Below are positions 4,535-19,313 of a stretch of 21,572 bases of DNA, one piece after another. This stretch comes from a virus. The stretch is from positions 1 to 21,572 of IMG/VR virus record IMGVR_UViG_3300045999_007151. One strand, 5' to 3'. Below the pieces are notes generated by a model. It did no database searches. It worked only from the letters and a program-made list of their open reading frames with translations, and was not told the origin of the DNA. The first letter of the stretch is position 1, and the number at the start of each line of letters is the position of its first letter. Position numbers and translations under genes: made by a program.

Positions 4535-4646
4535 AGAACAAATCGCTGAATTCAAACGCCTAATGAAGGCAAAGAGACTTGCAGAGCTAGCTGCGGAAAA
4601 GAAAAAGTTTGAGAAGGCTAAGCGTGACGCTAAGAAGCAGGACTAG
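4527..4646 (+). CDS. 39-aa highly charged helical mini-protein
   Basis: The ATG overlaps the upstream stop region. The product is nearly all Lys/Glu/Ala/Arg helix (for example EFKRLMKAKRLAELAAEKKK). Its last 17 nt overlap the end of the convergent glycosyltransferase gene. Low complexity and short length keep confidence moderate. Confidence 0.4.
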   Translation: MTEEQIAEFKRLMKAKRLAELAAEKKKFEKAKRDAKKQD

Positions 4647-5322
4647 CCATAAACTGTTTGTAATGCTTGTCAGTTAGCCACAGCTCTTTGTGGTGTGGGA
4701 ACACTGCGCCAGTGTGTGCATACATCTGGTAACCAGCAGCAACTACTCGAAGTGAGAACATCAAGTCTTCGCTTAGCCACGTGTTGTGTCCAGCTGGTCC
4801 GTCCTGGAACCAAGCCCAGTCTTTGCCTGAAGTCTCTTCCTCTTGCTTACGTACTGCCTCTAATACTGAGCGGTGAATAAGCAAGCATCCGGCGCCTGCC
4901 GCAGCGATTGGCACAACCTTGTTTTCAGGATAGTCATAGTACGGAGTAAAGGTTTTGGTCTCATTGAAGATGAAAATGCAAGGCGATGGTTCTAGGTCTA
5001 CAGGACTCTTGTTACCAAAGCAAAGACCTGAAATGATTGGTACCTTTTCAGCGTCAGCGGCACGAGCAAGTTTCTCAAAGGAATCTAGGCTTGCGAATTC
5101 GTCGCCGTCAATCATAAATAACCAGTCGGCAGTGGTGTCGTCTAGAAAAGTCTTGACAAGAAGGTTACGAGTCTTGGCAAGTAAACCTAGACCACGCATT
5201 GAGTTGTATGTCAGGCTGCGTCCACTCTTAGTGACTAAGTCTAGAAGACTAATGGCAAAGCCGTTGTCAATCTCTCCGTGGTGAGCCCATACGATGTGAA
5301 TCGTTTCATCTTTAGCAATCAT
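4630..5322 (-). CDS. Glycosyltransferase (GT-A fold, DxD), 230 aa
   Basis: A GT-A glycosyltransferase is indicated by DWLFMIDGDEFAS (about residues 66-78), which carries the DxD metal/nucleotide-sugar motif, and by NTWLSEDLMFSLRVVAAGYQ near 185-204, matching the ED-x-x-F/L-R acceptor-site motif of GT2-like enzymes. GAGCLLIHRSVLE at about 142-154 is also typical of phage GTs. It is the only minus-strand gene between about 350 and 9835. Its stop overlaps the convergent 39-aa ORF and its start is divergent from the methyltransferase, a layout typical of an independently acquired cargo gene. Acceptor unknown. Confidence 0.8.
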   Translation of the reverse strand: MIAKDETIHIVWAHHGEIDNGFAISLLDLVTKSGRSLTYNSMRGLGLLAKTRNLLVKTFLDDTTADWLFMIDGDEFASLDSFEKLARAADAEKVPIISGLCFGNKSPVDLEPSPCIFIFNETKTFTPYYDYPENKVVPIAAAGAGCLLIHRSVLEAVRKQEEETSGKDWAWFQDGPAGHNTWLSEDLMFSLRVVAAGYQMYAHTGAVFPHHKELWLTDKHYKQFMASPAS

Positions 5323-5346: not shown

Positions 5347-6507
5347 ATGACGGATACACCTAAACCACACTACGCTAGTGAGAAAGCAATCATCTACAGT
5401 GGCAACTGCTTAGATGTTCTCAAGGGACTTGCAGACAACTCTGTCGACTCAGTTGTTACTGACCCTCCGTATGACCTAACTAGCGGCAAAGGGTCGAAGG
5501 GTGGATTCATGGGGAACACGTGGGATGCGACTGGTATCGCGTTCAACACAGAAGTTTGGCAAGAGTGTCTAAGAGTGCTAAAGCCTGGCGGACACTTGCT
5601 ATCGTTTGGCGGCACGAGGACTTGGCACAGAATGGCAGTAGCTGTTGAAGACGCAGGGTTTGAGATTCGTGACAACATCATGTGGATTTATGGTAAGGCG
5701 TTTCCAAAATCACACAACATCTCTAAGGCCATGGCTAAAGGAGAAGGAGACTCTGAAAAGTGGGCAGGATGGGGAACGGCACTAAAGCCTTGTGTTGAAC
5801 CAATTGTGCTGGCACGAAAGCCTCTAGATGGAACCGTGGTTGCTAACGTCGCTAAGTGGGGAGTCGGTGGACTAAACATCGATGGCAGCAGAATACCGAC
5901 ACAAGAAGGCGAGAACTTCGACAATGTCAAGGGAATTCCGATTACTAAACTCTCGACTAAGCGCAATGGTGAAACAGATGAAGAATGGCGAGCACGAGTC
6001 AGTGAATCACCTGAACAGCAAGAAGCTTTAGAGAAACTAAAAAGTCTCGGGCGCTGGCCGGCCAATGTCATGCTCGACGAGTTTACTGCACCGTTAGTCG
6101 ATGACCAGAGTGGGTTTACAAAGTCGGGCGGAAAAATCAATCGCTTTGTCGGTGGTGCAAAACCTTGGGGAGACGCTGTCGGCGCAGAGTATGAATCTGT
6201 GCCTGGTCCGGCTGATGAAGGTGGTGCGTCTAGGTTCTTCTACGTTGCTAAGGCTAACGCCAAAGACCGTAGTGAAGGATTAGATTTCAAGAACGAACAC
6301 CCTACAGTCAAGCCGACATCATTGATGCGCCAGTTGGTGAAGTTAGTTACTCCGGTTGGTGGTGTAGTTCTAGACCCGTTTACTGGTTCAGGTTCTACTG
6401 GTAAAGCTGCTATTCTCGAACAGTGCAAGTTTATCGGCATTGAAATGACTGAAGAGTATTTACCTATAATTGTTGGACGAATTGTGTCCGCTGAGAAGAC
6501 TCTGTAA
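5347..6507 (+). CDS. DNA N6-adenine/N4-cytosine methyltransferase (beta-type), 386 aa
   Basis: This enzyme transfers a methyl group from S-adenosylmethionine to an exocyclic amino group in DNA. The catalytic motif IV TDPPYDLT (about residues 38-45) precedes the AdoMet-binding motif I LDPFTGSGSTG (about 342-352), with HPTVKP (318-323) just before it. This order is that of the beta group of amino-methyltransferases. The long middle section (about 130-310) would include target recognition. No restriction enzyme partner is seen next to it, so it is probably an orphan that protects phage DNA or marks it. It starts leaderless and is followed by the cupin gene after 12 nt. Confidence 0.9.
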   Translation: MTDTPKPHYASEKAIIYSGNCLDVLKGLADNSVDSVVTDPPYDLTSGKGSKGGFMGNTWDATGIAFNTEVWQECLRVLKPGGHLLSFGGTRTWHRMAVAVEDAGFEIRDNIMWIYGKAFPKSHNISKAMAKGEGDSEKWAGWGTALKPCVEPIVLARKPLDGTVVANVAKWGVGGLNIDGSRIPTQEGENFDNVKGIPITKLSTKRNGETDEEWRARVSESPEQQEALEKLKSLGRWPANVMLDEFTAPLVDDQSGFTKSGGKINRFVGGAKPWGDAVGAEYESVPGPADEGGASRFFYVAKANAKDRSEGLDFKNEHPTVKPTSLMRQLVKLVTPVGGVVLDPFTGSGSTGKAAILEQCKFIGIEMTEEYLPIIVGRIVSAEKTL

Positions 6508-6519: not shown

Positions 6520-6873
6520 ATGACACACATGACTGAAAGACCGTGGGGCGGATACCGCGTTTTGTCTGGCGCTGCTGACGCACCTGCTGCCGTAAAGATT
6601 CTTACTGTTCTGCCTGGAACCAGACTATCACTGCAAACGCACCAACTTCGCTCTGAAGAGTGGACTGCAGTTTCTCCTGGACTAAAGGCTCAAATCGGAG
6701 ACGAGACTGTTGAGTTGACTCCGTTCTGCACGTTCCGTATCCCGGTGGGAACGGTTCACCGTATCATAAACGACACACTAGAAGTCGGTCACATTGTAGA
6801 ACTTCTCTACGGTGTCTATGATGAAGATGACATTGAAAGGCTAGAAGACGACTATGGTCGAATCAAAAATTAA
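6520..6873 (+). CDS. Stand-alone cupin, mannose-6-phosphate isomerase type II-like, 117 aa
   Basis: The sequence matches the C-terminal cupin domain of bifunctional mannose-1-P guanylyltransferase/mannose-6-P isomerase: RPWGGYRVL (7-15), LPGTRLSLQTHQLRSEEW (31-48), IPVGTVHRI (74-82) and DDIERLEDDYGR (103-114). His41 and His80 with nearby Glu are the expected metal ligands. Members interconvert fructose-6-P and mannose-6-P, or act on related sugar phosphates. Here the nucleotidyltransferase half is absent, so the phage carries only the isomerase-like module. This fits the sugar-transfer genes upstream. ATG 6529 is an alternative start. It overlaps thyX by 20 nt. Confidence 0.8.
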   Translation: MTHMTERPWGGYRVLSGAADAPAAVKILTVLPGTRLSLQTHQLRSEEWTAVSPGLKAQIGDETVELTPFCTFRIPVGTVHRIINDTLEVGHIVELLYGVYDEDDIERLEDDYGRIKN

Positions 6874-7570
6874 GTTCCGTGCAGACATGACCGTTGAGCT
6901 AATCAACTCGATGGCGTCGGATTCAGCAGTCGCAATGGCTGCACGTGTGTCGACAATAAGTGGAAACCACGAAGCGGAAGTAGACGCAGCCAAAGACGCT
7001 GGTCTGATAAACTACTTGATGCGTGACCGTCACGGTTCTCCTTTTGAGCACAACGCATTCACGTTTTACATTGAAGCGCCTATCTTCGTGTTTCGCGAGT
7101 TCCAGCGTCACCGCATTGCTTCTTACAATGAAGAGTCTGGTCGGTACAAGCAGCTGAACCCGATGTTCTATGTGCCAAAAGGCACACGCGACTTGGTTCA
7201 GGTAGGAAAGCCTGGAGCCTATACATTCAAGCCTGGCAGTGAGAAGCAGCAAGACATGGTCTTTGACGCAGCTATTGACGTGTCTAGAGAAGCCTATGAC
7301 AAGTACGAAGCATTGCTAGAAGGCGGTGTTGCGCGTGAGGTTGCTCGTATGGTTCTGCCTGTGAACATCTACTCGTCAATGTACGTGACTATGAATGCAC
7401 GCGCCCTTATGAACTTCCTCTCGCTGCGCACACAGCGGGAGGGAACCCACTTCCCTTCTTATCCTCAGCGTGAAATTGAAATGTGTGCTGAGAAGATGGA
7501 AGACTTCTTTGCAGAGAAGATGCCACTAACCTATGAGGCGTTCAACAAAAATGGAAGGGTCGCACCGTGA
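6854..7570 (+). CDS. thyX: Flavin-dependent thymidylate synthase ThyX, 238 aa
   Basis: ThyX makes dTMP from dUMP using FAD, NADPH and methylene-tetrahydrofolate. The family signature RHRxxSxNExSxRY is complete as RHRIASYNEESGRY (residues 85-98), and HGSPFEH (60-66) and the C-terminal SLRTQREGTHFPSYPQREI are also typical. The length is normal. In phages with altered pyrimidines, thymidylate-synthase relatives may instead make hydroxymethyl-dUMP, and this cannot be decided from motifs alone. Translation is coupled to the preceding cupin (20-nt overlap) and to the following membrane protein (GTG overlap). Confidence 0.95.
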   Translation: MVESKIKFRADMTVELINSMASDSAVAMAARVSTISGNHEAEVDAAKDAGLINYLMRDRHGSPFEHNAFTFYIEAPIFVFREFQRHRIASYNEESGRYKQLNPMFYVPKGTRDLVQVGKPGAYTFKPGSEKQQDMVFDAAIDVSREAYDKYEALLEGGVAREVARMVLPVNIYSSMYVTMNARALMNFLSLRTQREGTHFPSYPQREIEMCAEKMEDFFAEKMPLTYEAFNKNGRVAP

Positions 7571-9939: not shown

Positions 9940-10800
9940 TTAGTCTAGGAAAGCCCAAGTCTTTGGACCGACGATACCGTCAACCAATAGACCATGCTTC
10001 TTCTGTAGTGCCTTGACTGCCTTGTCGGTACCTGCCTCAAAGTTACCAGTCACAACGAGCTTTAGCTGTTGCTGGATAAACTTGACTGCGTCTCCCTTAG
10101 AGCCGATTTTGATGTACGCGCCAGGGTAACCTGGGTTTGCAATCTTAGCGACCGCAGGCTTTGCAACGGCTGGCTTAGCGACTGCTGGCTTAGCGACTGG
10201 TGCTTCTACCTTTGCTGCCTTTAGTTGTGCGTCTACCTTTGCTGCTTGTGCTGCGTCGTGTGTTGGAGCTGCTGCTACAGGGTCTTCATCTTTAGCGACG
10301 ACTGCAGCTGAGGCGATTGCCTTCTCCTGAGCGATAAGCGCCTTGAAGAAGCCGATTGGCTCAATGTAGTTCTTACCCATTGCGTCCCAAACGTGCGAGC
10401 TGCCGAGACGAAGTTCCCAGTGAAGGTGCTTACCAGTAGACATACCAGTTGTGCCCATCTTGCCAAGCATCTGTCCTGCAAGAACCTTCTGGCCCTTCTT
10501 GACCTTGATTGAGTCGTCCTTCATGTGAGCGTAGAGTGTGGTGTAACTCTTGCCATTGATTTTGTGAAGAAGGATTACGTAGTTACCGAAGCCTCCGCCT
10601 GGAGCTGTAGACTTCTTAGCCTCTAGAACCTTGCCGTCGTATGGAGCCTCGATGTTACATGGCTCGTGTGGAGACCAGATGTCGGTGCCGTTGTGGTGCT
10701 TCTTTTGCTTTGTGACGGGGTGGATACGCATACCCATCAGCGAGGTGGCTTTGAAGTCCTTACCTAGCTTTCCGTCGATTGGGAACTGTGCCTTGGCCAT
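9940..10800 (-). CDS. Endolysin: M23 metallopeptidase with C-terminal peptidoglycan-binding domain, 286 aa
   Basis: This would cleave peptidoglycan cross-bridges at the end of infection. The N-terminal M23/LytM domain has the zinc ligands in HHNGTD (His36, Asp40) and HLHWEL (His125, His127), plus YAH (His92). A linker with PAVAK repeats (about 199-217) leads to a PG_binding_1-type domain (about 222-286: GSKGDAVKFIQQQLKL ... DGIVGPKTWAFLD). There is no signal peptide, so a holin is needed for export. A strong SD (GAGGAGAG) lies just upstream. It is the last gene of the minus-strand operon. A virion-associated lysin is less likely given the position by a holin candidate. Confidence 0.9.
   Translation of the reverse strand: MAKAQFPIDGKLGKDFKATSLMGMRIHPVTKQKKHHNGTDIWSPHEPCNIEAPYDGKVLEAKKSTAPGGGFGNYVILLHKINGKSYTTLYAHMKDDSIKVKKGQKVLAGQMLGKMGTTGMSTGKHLHWELRLGSSHVWDAMGKNYIEPIGFFKALIAQEKAIASAAVVAKDEDPVAAAPTHDAAQAAKVDAQLKAAKVEAPVAKPAVAKPAVAKPAVAKIANPGYPGAYIKIGSKGDAVKFIQQQLKLVVTGNFEAGTDKAVKALQKKHGLLVDGIVGPKTWAFLD
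10142..10201 (-). repeat. 15-bp tandem repeat in endolysin linker
   Basis: Four consecutive 15-bp units encode the Ala/Val/Lys/Pro linker. The two closest are GGCTTAGCGACTGCT and GGCTTAGCGACTGGT (10172-10201); the two others are diverged. This suggests slippage-driven change in linker length. Confidence 0.7.
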
Positions 10801-16284: not shown

Positions 16285-17292
16285 ATGATAGCAATAGACG
16301 ACATCGTCACACCGTTTACATCAAGAATCTATTCGCACCGTAGTTCATGGCCTAGGACACAGAAGTGTCAGTTACAAGACTTAGGCAAAGACGTTGTGCT
16401 AGCATTCGGTGACAACAAGATTATCGAGGACGCAGACTTTTGGGCTGTGTCTCACGGCATGGAGTTCAAAGACACGTATAACCTAAACGCCGGTTGGCAG
16501 CCTGAGCATGCCGAGCGCTTGCGCTTGATGATTCGCAAGGGAGCTGGCAAAGTCGTATCTCTAGAGAGACCGATGCCGGACCTAGTTGGAATCTTGAAGC
16601 CTCGCGGAGACAAGAGTGAGCACAACTTGACAGACGAAGAGTGGGCAGCATTGCAGCACATCGTGGACAACTGTCCGTGGATGAGTGCCGACATGCTAGT
16701 TCCTAATGCTGAGCGAGTAGTCCTTGGAGACTCGCACTCAGTTGCTCGATACCGCAGTGGCACTAGACTGCTGCGTAACGACGGTCTGACAATGCATGGA
16801 CTTCTGAAGCGTGGCATTGTTGAGATGCTCAAGGAAGCTGGAATTGAGAAGACTAAGAAGTTGGTCATCGTTGCTGGCAACATCGACATTCGTCATCACC
16901 TAATGCGCCAGCCTGAACCGTTTGCTGCTGTAGACACGATGCTAGATGAGCTTCGAGTGCAGTTGCGTGGTGTGATTACCGGCGGCGTTGCTGAAGACGT
17001 GGAGATTACGGCACCGTACCCTATCGAGTACGAGGAGCGAAAGCTTCCGAAGACTGGTTGGTATAAGGGGACTCCGTTCATTGGGTCGTGGGCGGAACGC
17101 GAGGCGCTTCGTAAGTACATGACCGAAGGCATGGTGTCAAGGTTTAGTGCTGAGAGAATCAAGCAATGGCCTGCAGAATGGTTTGAGTTAGACCCGCAAG
17201 CCTACGCAGAGACGTACATGGAAAAGCCTCGCTCGGTGCATTTGTCTCCGGGCCACTACGAATGGAATCTAGAGGAGAATCATGCCAGGTAA
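16285..17292 (+). CDS. SGNH/GDSL-like hydrolase, 335 aa
   Basis: Residues 145-152 VVLGDSHS carry the block I Ser motif of SGNH hydrolases. VAGNIDIRHH (196-205) resembles block III (GxND or GEIDxRxH variants), and VHLSPGHYEW (317-326) could supply the C-terminal His. So Ser150, Asn199 and a C-terminal His (318 or 323) are candidate active-site residues. The first 140 residues are not recognised. Family members remove or transfer acyl groups on sugars, lipids or small molecules. It is the first of three genes overlapping by 11 nt each, so it probably acts on the same substrate as its partners. SD AGGAGA is well placed. Confidence 0.5.
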   Translation: MIAIDDIVTPFTSRIYSHRSSWPRTQKCQLQDLGKDVVLAFGDNKIIEDADFWAVSHGMEFKDTYNLNAGWQPEHAERLRLMIRKGAGKVVSLERPMPDLVGILKPRGDKSEHNLTDEEWAALQHIVDNCPWMSADMLVPNAERVVLGDSHSVARYRSGTRLLRNDGLTMHGLLKRGIVEMLKEAGIEKTKKLVIVAGNIDIRHHLMRQPEPFAAVDTMLDELRVQLRGVITGGVAEDVEITAPYPIEYEERKLPKTGWYKGTPFIGSWAEREALRKYMTEGMVSRFSAERIKQWPAEWFELDPQAYAETYMEKPRSVHLSPGHYEWNLEENHAR

Positions 17293-18367
17293 GTTGATTT
17301 ACACAGAACACTGGGAAGAGTTCAAAGAGTACTACAAGAAAGCTGCAGCGCTTCAAGAGATAAACATTGCCGCACCTAAAGGCCGTGACACGTCTGAACC
17401 GTTGCATGTGAACGACCCGTTGCAGCATCACATCACTATCTACGACACGGTTGACCGTTGCTTTGCCGGATTCGCTAATGCTATCCAGCAGATTTGGTAT
17501 GGCTCTGAGAACCCGAAGCAGTGGCAAGTAGATAAGAGATGCGATGGACTTCGAGAGAAGCTAGGTCTAGAAGAGTGGCTTTGGCTATTCTTGTTCCACA
17601 GACTTACCGGCTCAGGAGCTTCGTTCAGTCATGACCACGGCTTCCGTAACTCGGTGCTACTTGAGATTGCGTTGGAGAACGAGACAATTGACGACATGCG
17701 AGACCATGCTCTTCGAATCATTGCGTCAGGGCGGCCAATCTTTACGAGTATCGGTAACACGATTCCGATGTTCCCTAAGCCGGTTCCACCTTATGAAAAG
17801 GCAAGCTCCTATTACATCGGGCACTTCATGAATCCGCTGGTCAGAGATGTGGCTCGATACATCACTGAGCATCCGCTAGAGTTGTCTATCCGTCAAGGTG
17901 TTGACTTGATAAATGACTGGCACAGACATAACAAGCTGAAGTGTTTCCACTTCCAGATGACTGCGTTCGTCATGGACATTGCTGAGTACTTCCCGCAGTA
18001 CGTTGACCCGTACTCGCAGGTGAACTACGGCAAGAATGCTGTTGAGGCCTTGTCTATCATCTTCAAGGGTGAAGGCTTTAGAAACCAGAACGAGTTCCTA
18101 GACGCTGCGATGGACCGAATCGTTGAAGAGTTCAGGTCTCCGTACGGGACCTCGGACATGGAACGTGGCATGGGTAAAGCAATGTGCCTTGAGGACGTGG
18201 CTTGTGACTACATTCGCTACGTCGGGTCGTATGTTCCAAAGGGTTACGAGCACTTAGAACTGTGGCGAGTAACACATAATCCGGTAACCGGAATCAAGTA
18301 CCCTAAGCACTGGACTTGGGAGAAGCACGCAGAACTCAAGAAGAAAGAAGAAGCAGATGGCATTTGA
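17282..18367 (+). CDS. Putative DNA thymine-hypermodification enzyme (aGPT-PPlase/AADT-like), 361 aa
   Basis: Motifs FHRLTGSGASFSHDHGFRN (105-123), FHFQMTAFVMDIAEYFPQYV (about 221-240) and EDVACDYIRYVG (about 301-312) resemble the phage families described as alpha-glutamyl/putrescinyl thymine pyrophosphorylase and amino acid:DNA transferase. These are thought to act on thymine-derived bases such as 5-hydroxymethyluracil in DNA and install amino-acid or polyamine groups. The match is from memory of motifs, not from a search. The gene overlaps its neighbours by 11 nt on both sides (SD AGGAG present), and the partner looks like a PLP enzyme, as in known hypermodification loci. If correct, virion DNA should carry a modified pyrimidine. 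Confidence 0.45.
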   Translation: MPGKLIYTEHWEEFKEYYKKAAALQEINIAAPKGRDTSEPLHVNDPLQHHITIYDTVDRCFAGFANAIQQIWYGSENPKQWQVDKRCDGLREKLGLEEWLWLFLFHRLTGSGASFSHDHGFRNSVLLEIALENETIDDMRDHALRIIASGRPIFTSIGNTIPMFPKPVPPYEKASSYYIGHFMNPLVRDVARYITEHPLELSIRQGVDLINDWHRHNKLKCFHFQMTAFVMDIAEYFPQYVDPYSQVNYGKNAVEALSIIFKGEGFRNQNEFLDAAMDRIVEEFRSPYGTSDMERGMGKAMCLEDVACDYIRYVGSYVPKGYEHLELWRVTHNPVTGIKYPKHWTWEKHAELKKKEEADGI

Positions 18368-19262
18368 ATTTGAGATTACCTCAGATACAAGTAATAAGTA
18401 CCTGAAGGAAAAGACTCGAGATTACTATCTTGAGCTTGCAGCTGGCTGGAAAGATACGGCACCTGCTCCGGCAATTGTCAATCTGAACGGTGCTACGGTC
18501 TGGGACGACTCTGTAACAGGACTAGGAACTAAAGGACGCTGGGGAGACTTGCTGATTAGTAAGGTCCAGCAGAAGGAAGTTGTCTACGTTCAGCCTCGAG
18601 TCGGATGGGCAGGCATGTCGCTATCAGCTCTAGTAGATAAGTACGACAAGAACCTGACATTGTTTATGCCTGCGTCGAAGAAGATTAGCGACCATCAGCT
18701 AATCTGTGTTGAGCGAGGTGCTAAGACTAAGTTTAGACGAATCGCCGCCATGCCTGTACTAAATAAGTATGCGAAGGACTATGCTGATGAAGTCGGCGGA
18801 TTCTTTGTTCCATTCGGTCTAGACCACGAACTTGTTGTCGCAGCTGGTGTTGCTAGTACCCTTCAGCAATGGGGAGACCGTCCTGAGCCTAAGCACATTG
18901 TCTCAGTTGTCTCTACTGGAGTGTTATCGAGAACTTTGCAGATAGCCTTCCCGAACGCTGAGTTCCATGGAGTTGCTGTCGCCAGAAACCTAAAAGCTGG
19001 TGAGATTGGTCGGGCAAACGTAATGTCATACCACCGTCCGTTCTTGCAGGACGCAGATGAAGCCGCTCGAATCATTGAAGAAACCGGAATCAGCTCGGCT
19101 CCGAACTATGACATGAAGGGCATCGAGTATTTGATTCGTGGTAAGCTTGGAGTTCCGATGACTCCTGAGACGCTCTTCTGGAACGTCGCAGGCGACATCA
19201 AACCGTCTTTCATGAAGCACGAAGATGTTGATTCGGCTCGTGAATGGGGTGAGGTTCGCTAG
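18357..19262 (+). CDS. PLP-dependent enzyme, fold type II-like, 301 aa
   Basis: The N-terminal WDDSVTGLGTKGRWGDLL (49-66) resembles the Schiff-base Lys segment of ACC-deaminase/threonine-synthase-like enzymes, with Lys59 as candidate. VVAAGVASTLQQ (160-171) and SVVSTGVLSRTLQ (183-195) would be the phosphate-binding Ser/Gly loop, followed by FHGVAVARNLKAGEIG. This order fits fold type II. PLP enzymes occur in phage thymine-hypermodification loci, where they trim or rearrange amino-acid adducts. It overlaps the previous gene and is followed by a terminator, so it ends the operon. A phosphoribosyltransferase-type fold is a less likely alternative. Confidence 0.45.
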   Translation: MAFEFEITSDTSNKYLKEKTRDYYLELAAGWKDTAPAPAIVNLNGATVWDDSVTGLGTKGRWGDLLISKVQQKEVVYVQPRVGWAGMSLSALVDKYDKNLTLFMPASKKISDHQLICVERGAKTKFRRIAAMPVLNKYAKDYADEVGGFFVPFGLDHELVVAAGVASTLQQWGDRPEPKHIVSVVSTGVLSRTLQIAFPNAEFHGVAVARNLKAGEIGRANVMSYHRPFLQDADEAARIIEETGISSAPNYDMKGIEYLIRGKLGVPMTPETLFWNVAGDIKPSFMKHEDVDSAREWGEVR

Positions 19263-19283
19263 CTCCGGCGCACCTCTAAAAAG

Positions 19284-19313
19284 TCCCCTGTCGCTATTGG
19301 CAGGGGATTTTTT
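19284..19313 (+). terminator. Strong intrinsic terminator
   Basis: Stem TCCCCTG (19284-19290) / CAGGGGA (19301-19307), 10-nt loop, then TTTTTT (19308-19313), 22 nt after the PLP-enzyme stop. The opposite flank AAAAAG can give a weaker minus-strand terminator. Confidence 0.85.

Follow-up and report, generated by a model that had tools for sequence, protein, structure and literature searches.

One of the closest known systems to the locus described here is the thymidine hypermodification pathway of Pseudomonas phage M6 and Salmonella phage ViI, which involves 5-hmdU, 5-HMUDK, ADDT, and a PLP enzyme. At the M6 locus, the PLP enzyme gp52 lies beside the ADDT protein gp51, the P-loop protein gp54, and the HMUDK_hel protein gp55; in thymine systems, the P-loop kinase adjoins HMUDK_hel. 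For cytosine, glycosylation of 5-hmC is the classical modification, and the T4 5-hmC pathway relies on the gp42 hydroxymethylase, the gp56 dCTPase/dUTPase, the gp1 kinase, and glucosyltransferases. Decoration of cytosine with an amino acid is already known from CmoX/CmoY of cyanophage S-B43, where the CmoA/CmoX/CmoY system yields 5-carboxymethylcytosine-glycine using a carboxymethyltransferase and an ATP-dependent amide ligase acting on 5cxmC (PMC12783734). In the searchable literature, enzymatic attachment of small groups via a hydroxymethyl handle by ADDT/kinase-type proteins concerns thymine, whereas the groups described on cytosine are sugars or the 5cxmC-glycine amide. Our literature search, with key subscription papers outside its reach, returned no report of an ADDT-like/PLP/SGNH set acting on 5-hmC and none tying inositol to phage DNA modification.

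Here, we analyze a three-gene cassette (g1, g2, and g3) on a viral DNA stretch of 21,572 nucleotides, hereafter the window. With M6 and ViI, the cassette and its neighborhood share a TS-family hydroxymethylase, a helical ADDT/HMUDK_hel-type protein (g2), and a phrog_7093 PLP enzyme (g3). They differ in that the hydroxymethylase is of the dCMP type, a credible 5-HMUDK-type kinase is missing, an SGNH-like protein (g1) is a constant partner, and g2 falls outside the Pfam families. The T4 pathway is similar in having dCMP hydroxymethylase, deaminase, pool-sanitising, and kinase genes alongside, but here g1–g3 take the place of the decoration genes, and the operon showed no T4 glucosyltransferase. 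The S-B43 Cmo system (PMC12783734), finally, resembles the pathway proposed below in attaching an amino acid during cytosine hypermodification, whereas the cassette and its neighborhood combine a hydroxymethylase with ADDT-like, PLP, and SGNH-like proteins.

Genes and proteins of the cassette

All three genes are ORFs on the + strand: g1 (16285..17292; 335 aa), g2 (17282..18367; 361 aa), and g3 (18357..19262; 301 aa), with 11-nt overlaps between g1 and g2 and between g2 and g3. These ORFs and overlaps had been described in a first-pass annotation made from the sequence alone, together with a closing terminator and the motifs RLTGSGASF, HDHGFRN, and EDVACDYIRY, and every one of these elements is indeed present. 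The terminator (~19277..19313, + strand) is an intrinsic one, with a 16-pair stem, a 6-nt loop, and a U-run, and the hairpin reaches −25.5 kcal/mol (z −5.5) in a folding computation. It was absent from the output of a consensus terminator scanner, probably due to the stem running into the T run.

A relative of the window is a 127-kb viral contig whose g1–g3 proteins are 93–97% identical to those of the cassette. The changes between the two, counted at codon positions 1/2/3, amount to 27/12/106 in g1, 25/13/100 in g2, and 16/7/78 in g3. Third codon positions take most of the changes, so g1–g3 are protein-coding and evolve under purifying selection. In this relative ~510 nt separate g1 and g2, and the overlap itself is therefore not conserved. 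A Pfam search of g1, g2, and g3 gave nothing useful.

The g1 protein (phrog_13881, E 7.5e-51) consists of a Rossmann-like N-terminal region (about residues 1–140) ahead of an SGNH-like domain. Its C-terminal part matches GDSL/SGNH esterases with a Foldseek probability of 1.0 (AF2 model, pLDDT 90) and contains the serine of the GDS motif (Ser150), the block III asparagine of GNID (Asn199), and the catalytic histidine of EKPxSVHLS (His319), all three invariant among 16 homologues. Fold and residues agree with the SGNH/GDSL hydrolase superfamily, and the SGNH-like identity assigned earlier holds for the C-terminal part. Unlike the superfamily, g1 has the N-terminal region of about 140 residues, lacks the canonical Asp at His-3 (the position being R/G/K/Q in the 16 homologues), and has DNA-modification proteins as fusion or gene partners. 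Glu313, at −6 from the histidine, is invariant in the same homologues. A PDB profile search with g1 gave no match.

The AF2 model of g2 is all-helical (pLDDT 85, pTM 0.87). Its top Foldseek matches in BFVD are g2 relatives, one of which has an amino acid:DNA transferase domain in its annotation, followed by another ADDT-domain protein (E 1.1e-4) and the SP10 5-hmdU DNA kinase (5.1e-4). HMUDK_hel proteins of phiRSL1, PhiW-14, and Lucky3 are matched as well, and up to E 0.065 all matches are g2 relatives, members of the ADDT/HMUDK_hel superfamily, or unnamed entries. The fold is common to g2, ADDT (PF18724), and HMUDK_hel (PF18723) (Foldseek E 1e-4 to 5e-4, probability 1.0), and structure prediction gave confident matches only to phage DNA base-modification proteins; a PDB search with the model found weak likeness only, to the HhH 8-oxoguanine glycosylases AGOG. 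The earlier description of g2 as an aGPT/ADDT-like enzyme thus stands at the level of the fold but not in Pfam, where 24 members gave no match at the curated cut-offs for ADDT and HMUDK_hel, nor in a direct profile–profile comparison of g2 with HMUDK_hel, which gave no link. Searching cultured phages with g2 by tblastn returned none. In T4-like lineages, a third protein beside g2, named g4, aligns weakly with both g2 (pairwise P 3e-4) and HMUDK_hel (9e-4) and so bridges the two.

The last gene, g3, matches phrog_7093 (E 2.3e-25), the PHROG that also contains M6 gp52 (E 2e-159), and g3 homologues match PALP above the Pfam cut-off, in line with the PLP fold-type II first proposed for it. The predicted PLP lysine is K59 (codon 18531–18533), which, together with R61, aligns with SKIR of M6 gp52. 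A PDB profile search with g3 gave no match. Erythrobacter and Microcystis phages have other g3 relatives, which form part of DNA methyltransferases or adjoin them.

Distribution and gene neighborhood

Two alignment-based scans of IMG/VR found 556 and 567 encoded g2 relatives (hence >550), 80 of which were retained from each scan. The trio occurs together, in four gene orders, in 89 of the 149 loci examined (loci rather than genomes, as some contigs are represented more than once); some g2 loci have no g1 or g3 inside the stretch examined. Dozens of contigs share the arrangement dCMP deaminase, dUTPase_2 family, g1, g2, g3, kinase, and TS homologue. The operon kinase resembles thymidylate kinases and the prophage protein YorR. 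As a first choice for the 5-hmdU DNA kinase this P-loop protein was rejected, since its profiles are of the thymidylate-kinase type and it adjoins the hydroxymethylase. The nearest TS homologues occur in Gordonia phages and one locus (L016) has a WhiB-like ORF, from which the host is probably actinobacterial.

g1 is also found in a second lineage. In Aeromonas Straboviridae its C-terminus continues into a fused domain that matches HMUDK_hel below threshold (E 0.0036 and 0.0022), and in 10/10 loci with this HMUDK_hel-like domain, g1 is fused to it or near. Three members of the g1-linked domain pass the Pfam HMUDK_hel cut-off (25.2, 25.0, and 28.9 vs 25). A T4-type dCMP hydroxymethylase is present in 3/3 Aeromonas phages and in 2/4 of the uncultivated ones searched, and an M6-type kinase (phrog_800) was not credibly found in the phages of this lineage that were searched. 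All nine uncultivated loci encode a myo-inositol-1-phosphate synthase homologue as well as a small conserved protein without a Pfam match, which we take to be HAD-like; in Aeromonas 44RR, a sodium:solute symporter lies upstream in place of the synthase. When g2 was compared by BLASTP with the Aeromonas fusion proteins and with the g1 neighbors in Tulanevirus 60AhydR15PP, the matches were at chance level only. g1–g2 fusions do occur (loci L078/L130 and L131). Across the two lineages g1 may thus be the constant element, its helical companion and the supply genes differing from one to the other; this supports the earlier idea of an SGNH-like partner, an unusual one, in a hypermodification locus.

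The base that is probably modified

The first-pass annotation had proposed thymine-type bases as a possible target. The choice between dUMP and dCMP in TS-family enzymes is set largely by one residue, for which T4 dCMP hydroxymethylase has Asp and E. coli thymidylate synthase has Asn (N177). Among the unique TS homologues beside the cassette with a readable motif, 51/51 (13 clusters at 70% identity) have Asp at this position, whereas Asn is found in 5/5 hydroxymethyluracil-type controls (M6, SH-Ab 15599, RHph_I65, LysYB1, and SBSphiC, all carriers of HMUDK_hel-type genes). Aeromonas phages serve as an internal control, since a gp42-type enzyme with Asp and a true thymidylate synthase with Asn occur there within one genome; the PDB set includes a T4 dCMP hydroxymethylase variant with Asn at the specificity position. 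Individual enzymes agree with this: that of locus L012 resembles the T4 gp42 dCMP hydroxymethylase (E 1.4e-85), that of L016 is nearest to CMP 5-hydroxymethylase, and that of the 127-kb relative is CMP-hydroxymethylase-like, the latter two both with Asp. In the 127-kb relative, hydroxymethylase, dCMP deaminase, and kinase cluster at 36.0–38.6 kb, 75 kb from the cassette. The window, a 21.6-kb fragment, has no dCMP hydroxymethylase within it, and the base assignment therefore rests on relatives. It does encode a ThyX-like protein, consistent with ordinary thymine. Because of the dCMP-type enzymes, the cluster in the 127-kb relative, and the ThyX-like gene, we consider 5-hmC the likely substrate, with thymine unsupported; that cytosine is the modified base is probable, and hypermodification of DNA bases in general is very probable, the compact locus first proposed being supported by the g2 fold and the M6 gp52-like PLP enzyme.

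The 5-hmdU DNA kinase, reported earlier as not visible in the window, was not credibly found in whole related records either. Searching cassette genomes, some of whose records may be fragments, for an M6 gp54-type kinase (phrog_800; M6 control 9e-42) returned none that was credible, only weak generic P-loop matches or nothing, and the profile also matches 14/14 cellular controls. In whole genomes of the trio phages searched, ADDT and HMUDK_hel had no Pfam match.

Proposed pathway and alternatives

The sequence data show directly what the genes are, that they are conserved and linked, and that the hydroxymethylases bear a signature of the dCMP type. From these we infer hmC in virion DNA, a group attached to it, and the order and roles of g1–g3. 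We think it reasonably likely that the cassette carries out the post-replicative steps by which cytosine is hypermodified, with g2 attaching, g3 processing, and g1 activating or acylating. The phage dCMP hydroxymethylase would form 5-hm-dCMP, which the thymidylate-kinase-like enzyme would phosphorylate, while the dUTPase/dCTPase-type enzyme and dCMP deaminase would reshape the pool so that 5-hmC enters DNA. There, g2 would load the hydroxymethyl carbon with a small group that bears an amine or a hydroxyl and is probably an amino acid; overall, we lean slightly toward a group of the amino-acid type. g3 would trim or rearrange the attached group on DNA, as is expected for M6 gp52. g1, for its part, would either activate the hydroxymethyl group, as a 5-hmdU DNA kinase does in thymine systems, or carry out an acyl step on the product. 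The former is suggested because g1 is fused or adjacent to HMUDK_hel where thymine systems place the P-loop kinase, although activation by g1 is a tentative assignment.

The most serious alternative is that 5-hmC is made and then receives a sugar or polyol by glycosyl-type chemistry, with g1 acylating it or transferring onto it and g2/g3 forming a side branch. Glycosyltransferase-like genes are indeed found in the window (4630–5322, phrog_34859), in the 127-kb relative, and downstream of L012-type trios; the myo-inositol-1-phosphate synthase next to g1 and HMUDK_hel (9/9 loci) and a g1 relative with a weak match to T4 beta-glucosyltransferase (E 0.047) point the same way. In Tulanevirus 60AhydR15PP, moreover, g1 adjoins a UDP-galactopyranose mutase and HMUDK_hel is not detectable in a whole-genome Pfam search, which fits a sugar role. 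On the other hand, actinophage operons carry the trio without a glycosyltransferase homologous to the query inside the operon, and a PLP enzyme related to M6 gp52 suggests an amino-acid group, so that we regard the sugar reading as rather unlikely.

Thymine hypermodification, in which 5-hmU in DNA would undergo ADDT-like transfer and PLP processing, could explain why both the gp52 homology of g3 and the fold of g2 lead to thymine systems. Set against the uniform Asp of the cassette-linked enzymes, the Asn of hmU phages, the missing kinase, ADDT, and HMUDK_hel of the trio genomes searched, and the ThyX-like gene, it becomes very improbable. We give just as little credence to a trio acting on nucleotides, tRNA, or a small molecule, its linkage to nucleotide-pool genes being incidental: the folds of SGNH and PLP enzymes are generic ones in metabolism, but the confident fold matches of g2, the fusion of HMUDK_hel to g1, and the DNA methyltransferase domains fused or adjacent to g3 relatives all argue for DNA.

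If the cytosine pathway is correct, a kinase-less ADDT-like route on hydroxymethylcytosine would extend the repertoire of phage DNA bases by a class, an SGNH-like protein would gain a function in DNA modification, and candidate enzymes for the chemical tagging of 5-hmC would become available. A bolder and doubtful extension is that 5-hmC is decorated by a widespread modular system built around g1, which would be the constant activator or transferase and stand in for the DNA kinase of thymine systems. The helical partner of g1 (g2 or HMUDK_hel) and the supply genes (PLP enzyme in one branch, myo-inositol synthesis in another) would be interchangeable; the system would imply new bases, for example, amino-acid-derived and inositol-linked cytosines. 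The kinase-less route would be spread over hundreds of contigs, and cultivated Aeromonas phages would have a related form of it; among these, the 44RR-type phages make the g1–HMUDK_hel branch open to testing now.

Inositol and cytosine-methylase genes beside g1

In all nine uncultivated loci that pair the SGNH-like g1 with the 5-hmdU kinase helical domain HMUDK_hel (L121-L129), the pair is adjoined by a myo-inositol-1-phosphate synthase (PF01658) as well as by a small gene of HAD-like appearance (e.g., L128:3025-4191 and L126:3632-4840), a neighborhood suggesting that these phages carry an inositol-linked base. In two different lineages, g1 is adjoined by a C-5 cytosine-specific DNA methylase (PF00145; L188:10114-11307 and L129:8851-10062), possibly reflecting further cytosine chemistry. 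A UDP-galactopyranose mutase (L007:3258-4322) lies close to the g1 homolog of Aeromonas phage 60AhydR15PP.

Companions of g2 and g3

In T4-like lineages, the all-helical g2 is adjoined by an unannotated protein of 295-334 aa, here called g4 (L161:4246-5130, L188:7151-8152, L176:7116-8117, and about 50 further loci). It has HMUDK_hel-like GG(P/T)GH..GL and ED..CF motifs and appears to form a bridge between g2 and HMUDK_hel. Loci carrying g2 in the lineage without nearby g1 or g3 encode an HhH-GPD base-excision-like protein (L094:2228-3079 and its cluster). In Erythrobacter phage ZS04, an N6/N4 DNA methylase domain shares one polypeptide with a g3-like PALP domain (L003:2326-4764), and a PAPS-reductase-like gene is close by.

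Annotation, assembly, and other window genes

For Pseudomonas phage M6 gp54 (L104:41685-42248), a P-loop protein and in our reading the 5-hmdU DNA kinase, both GenBank and phrog_800 give the label "terminase small subunit", which is probably a mistaken annotation that has been copied onward. The inverted repeat of g3, kinase, and thymidylate-synthase-family genes in contig L061/L147 looks like a palindromic assembly artifact. The window also encodes a serine-recombinase-like gene (1929-2636), a glycosyltransferase-like gene (4630-5322, minus strand), a DNA methyltransferase (5347-6507), a ThyX-like thymidylate synthase (6854-7570), and an endolysin-like gene (9940-10800, minus strand).
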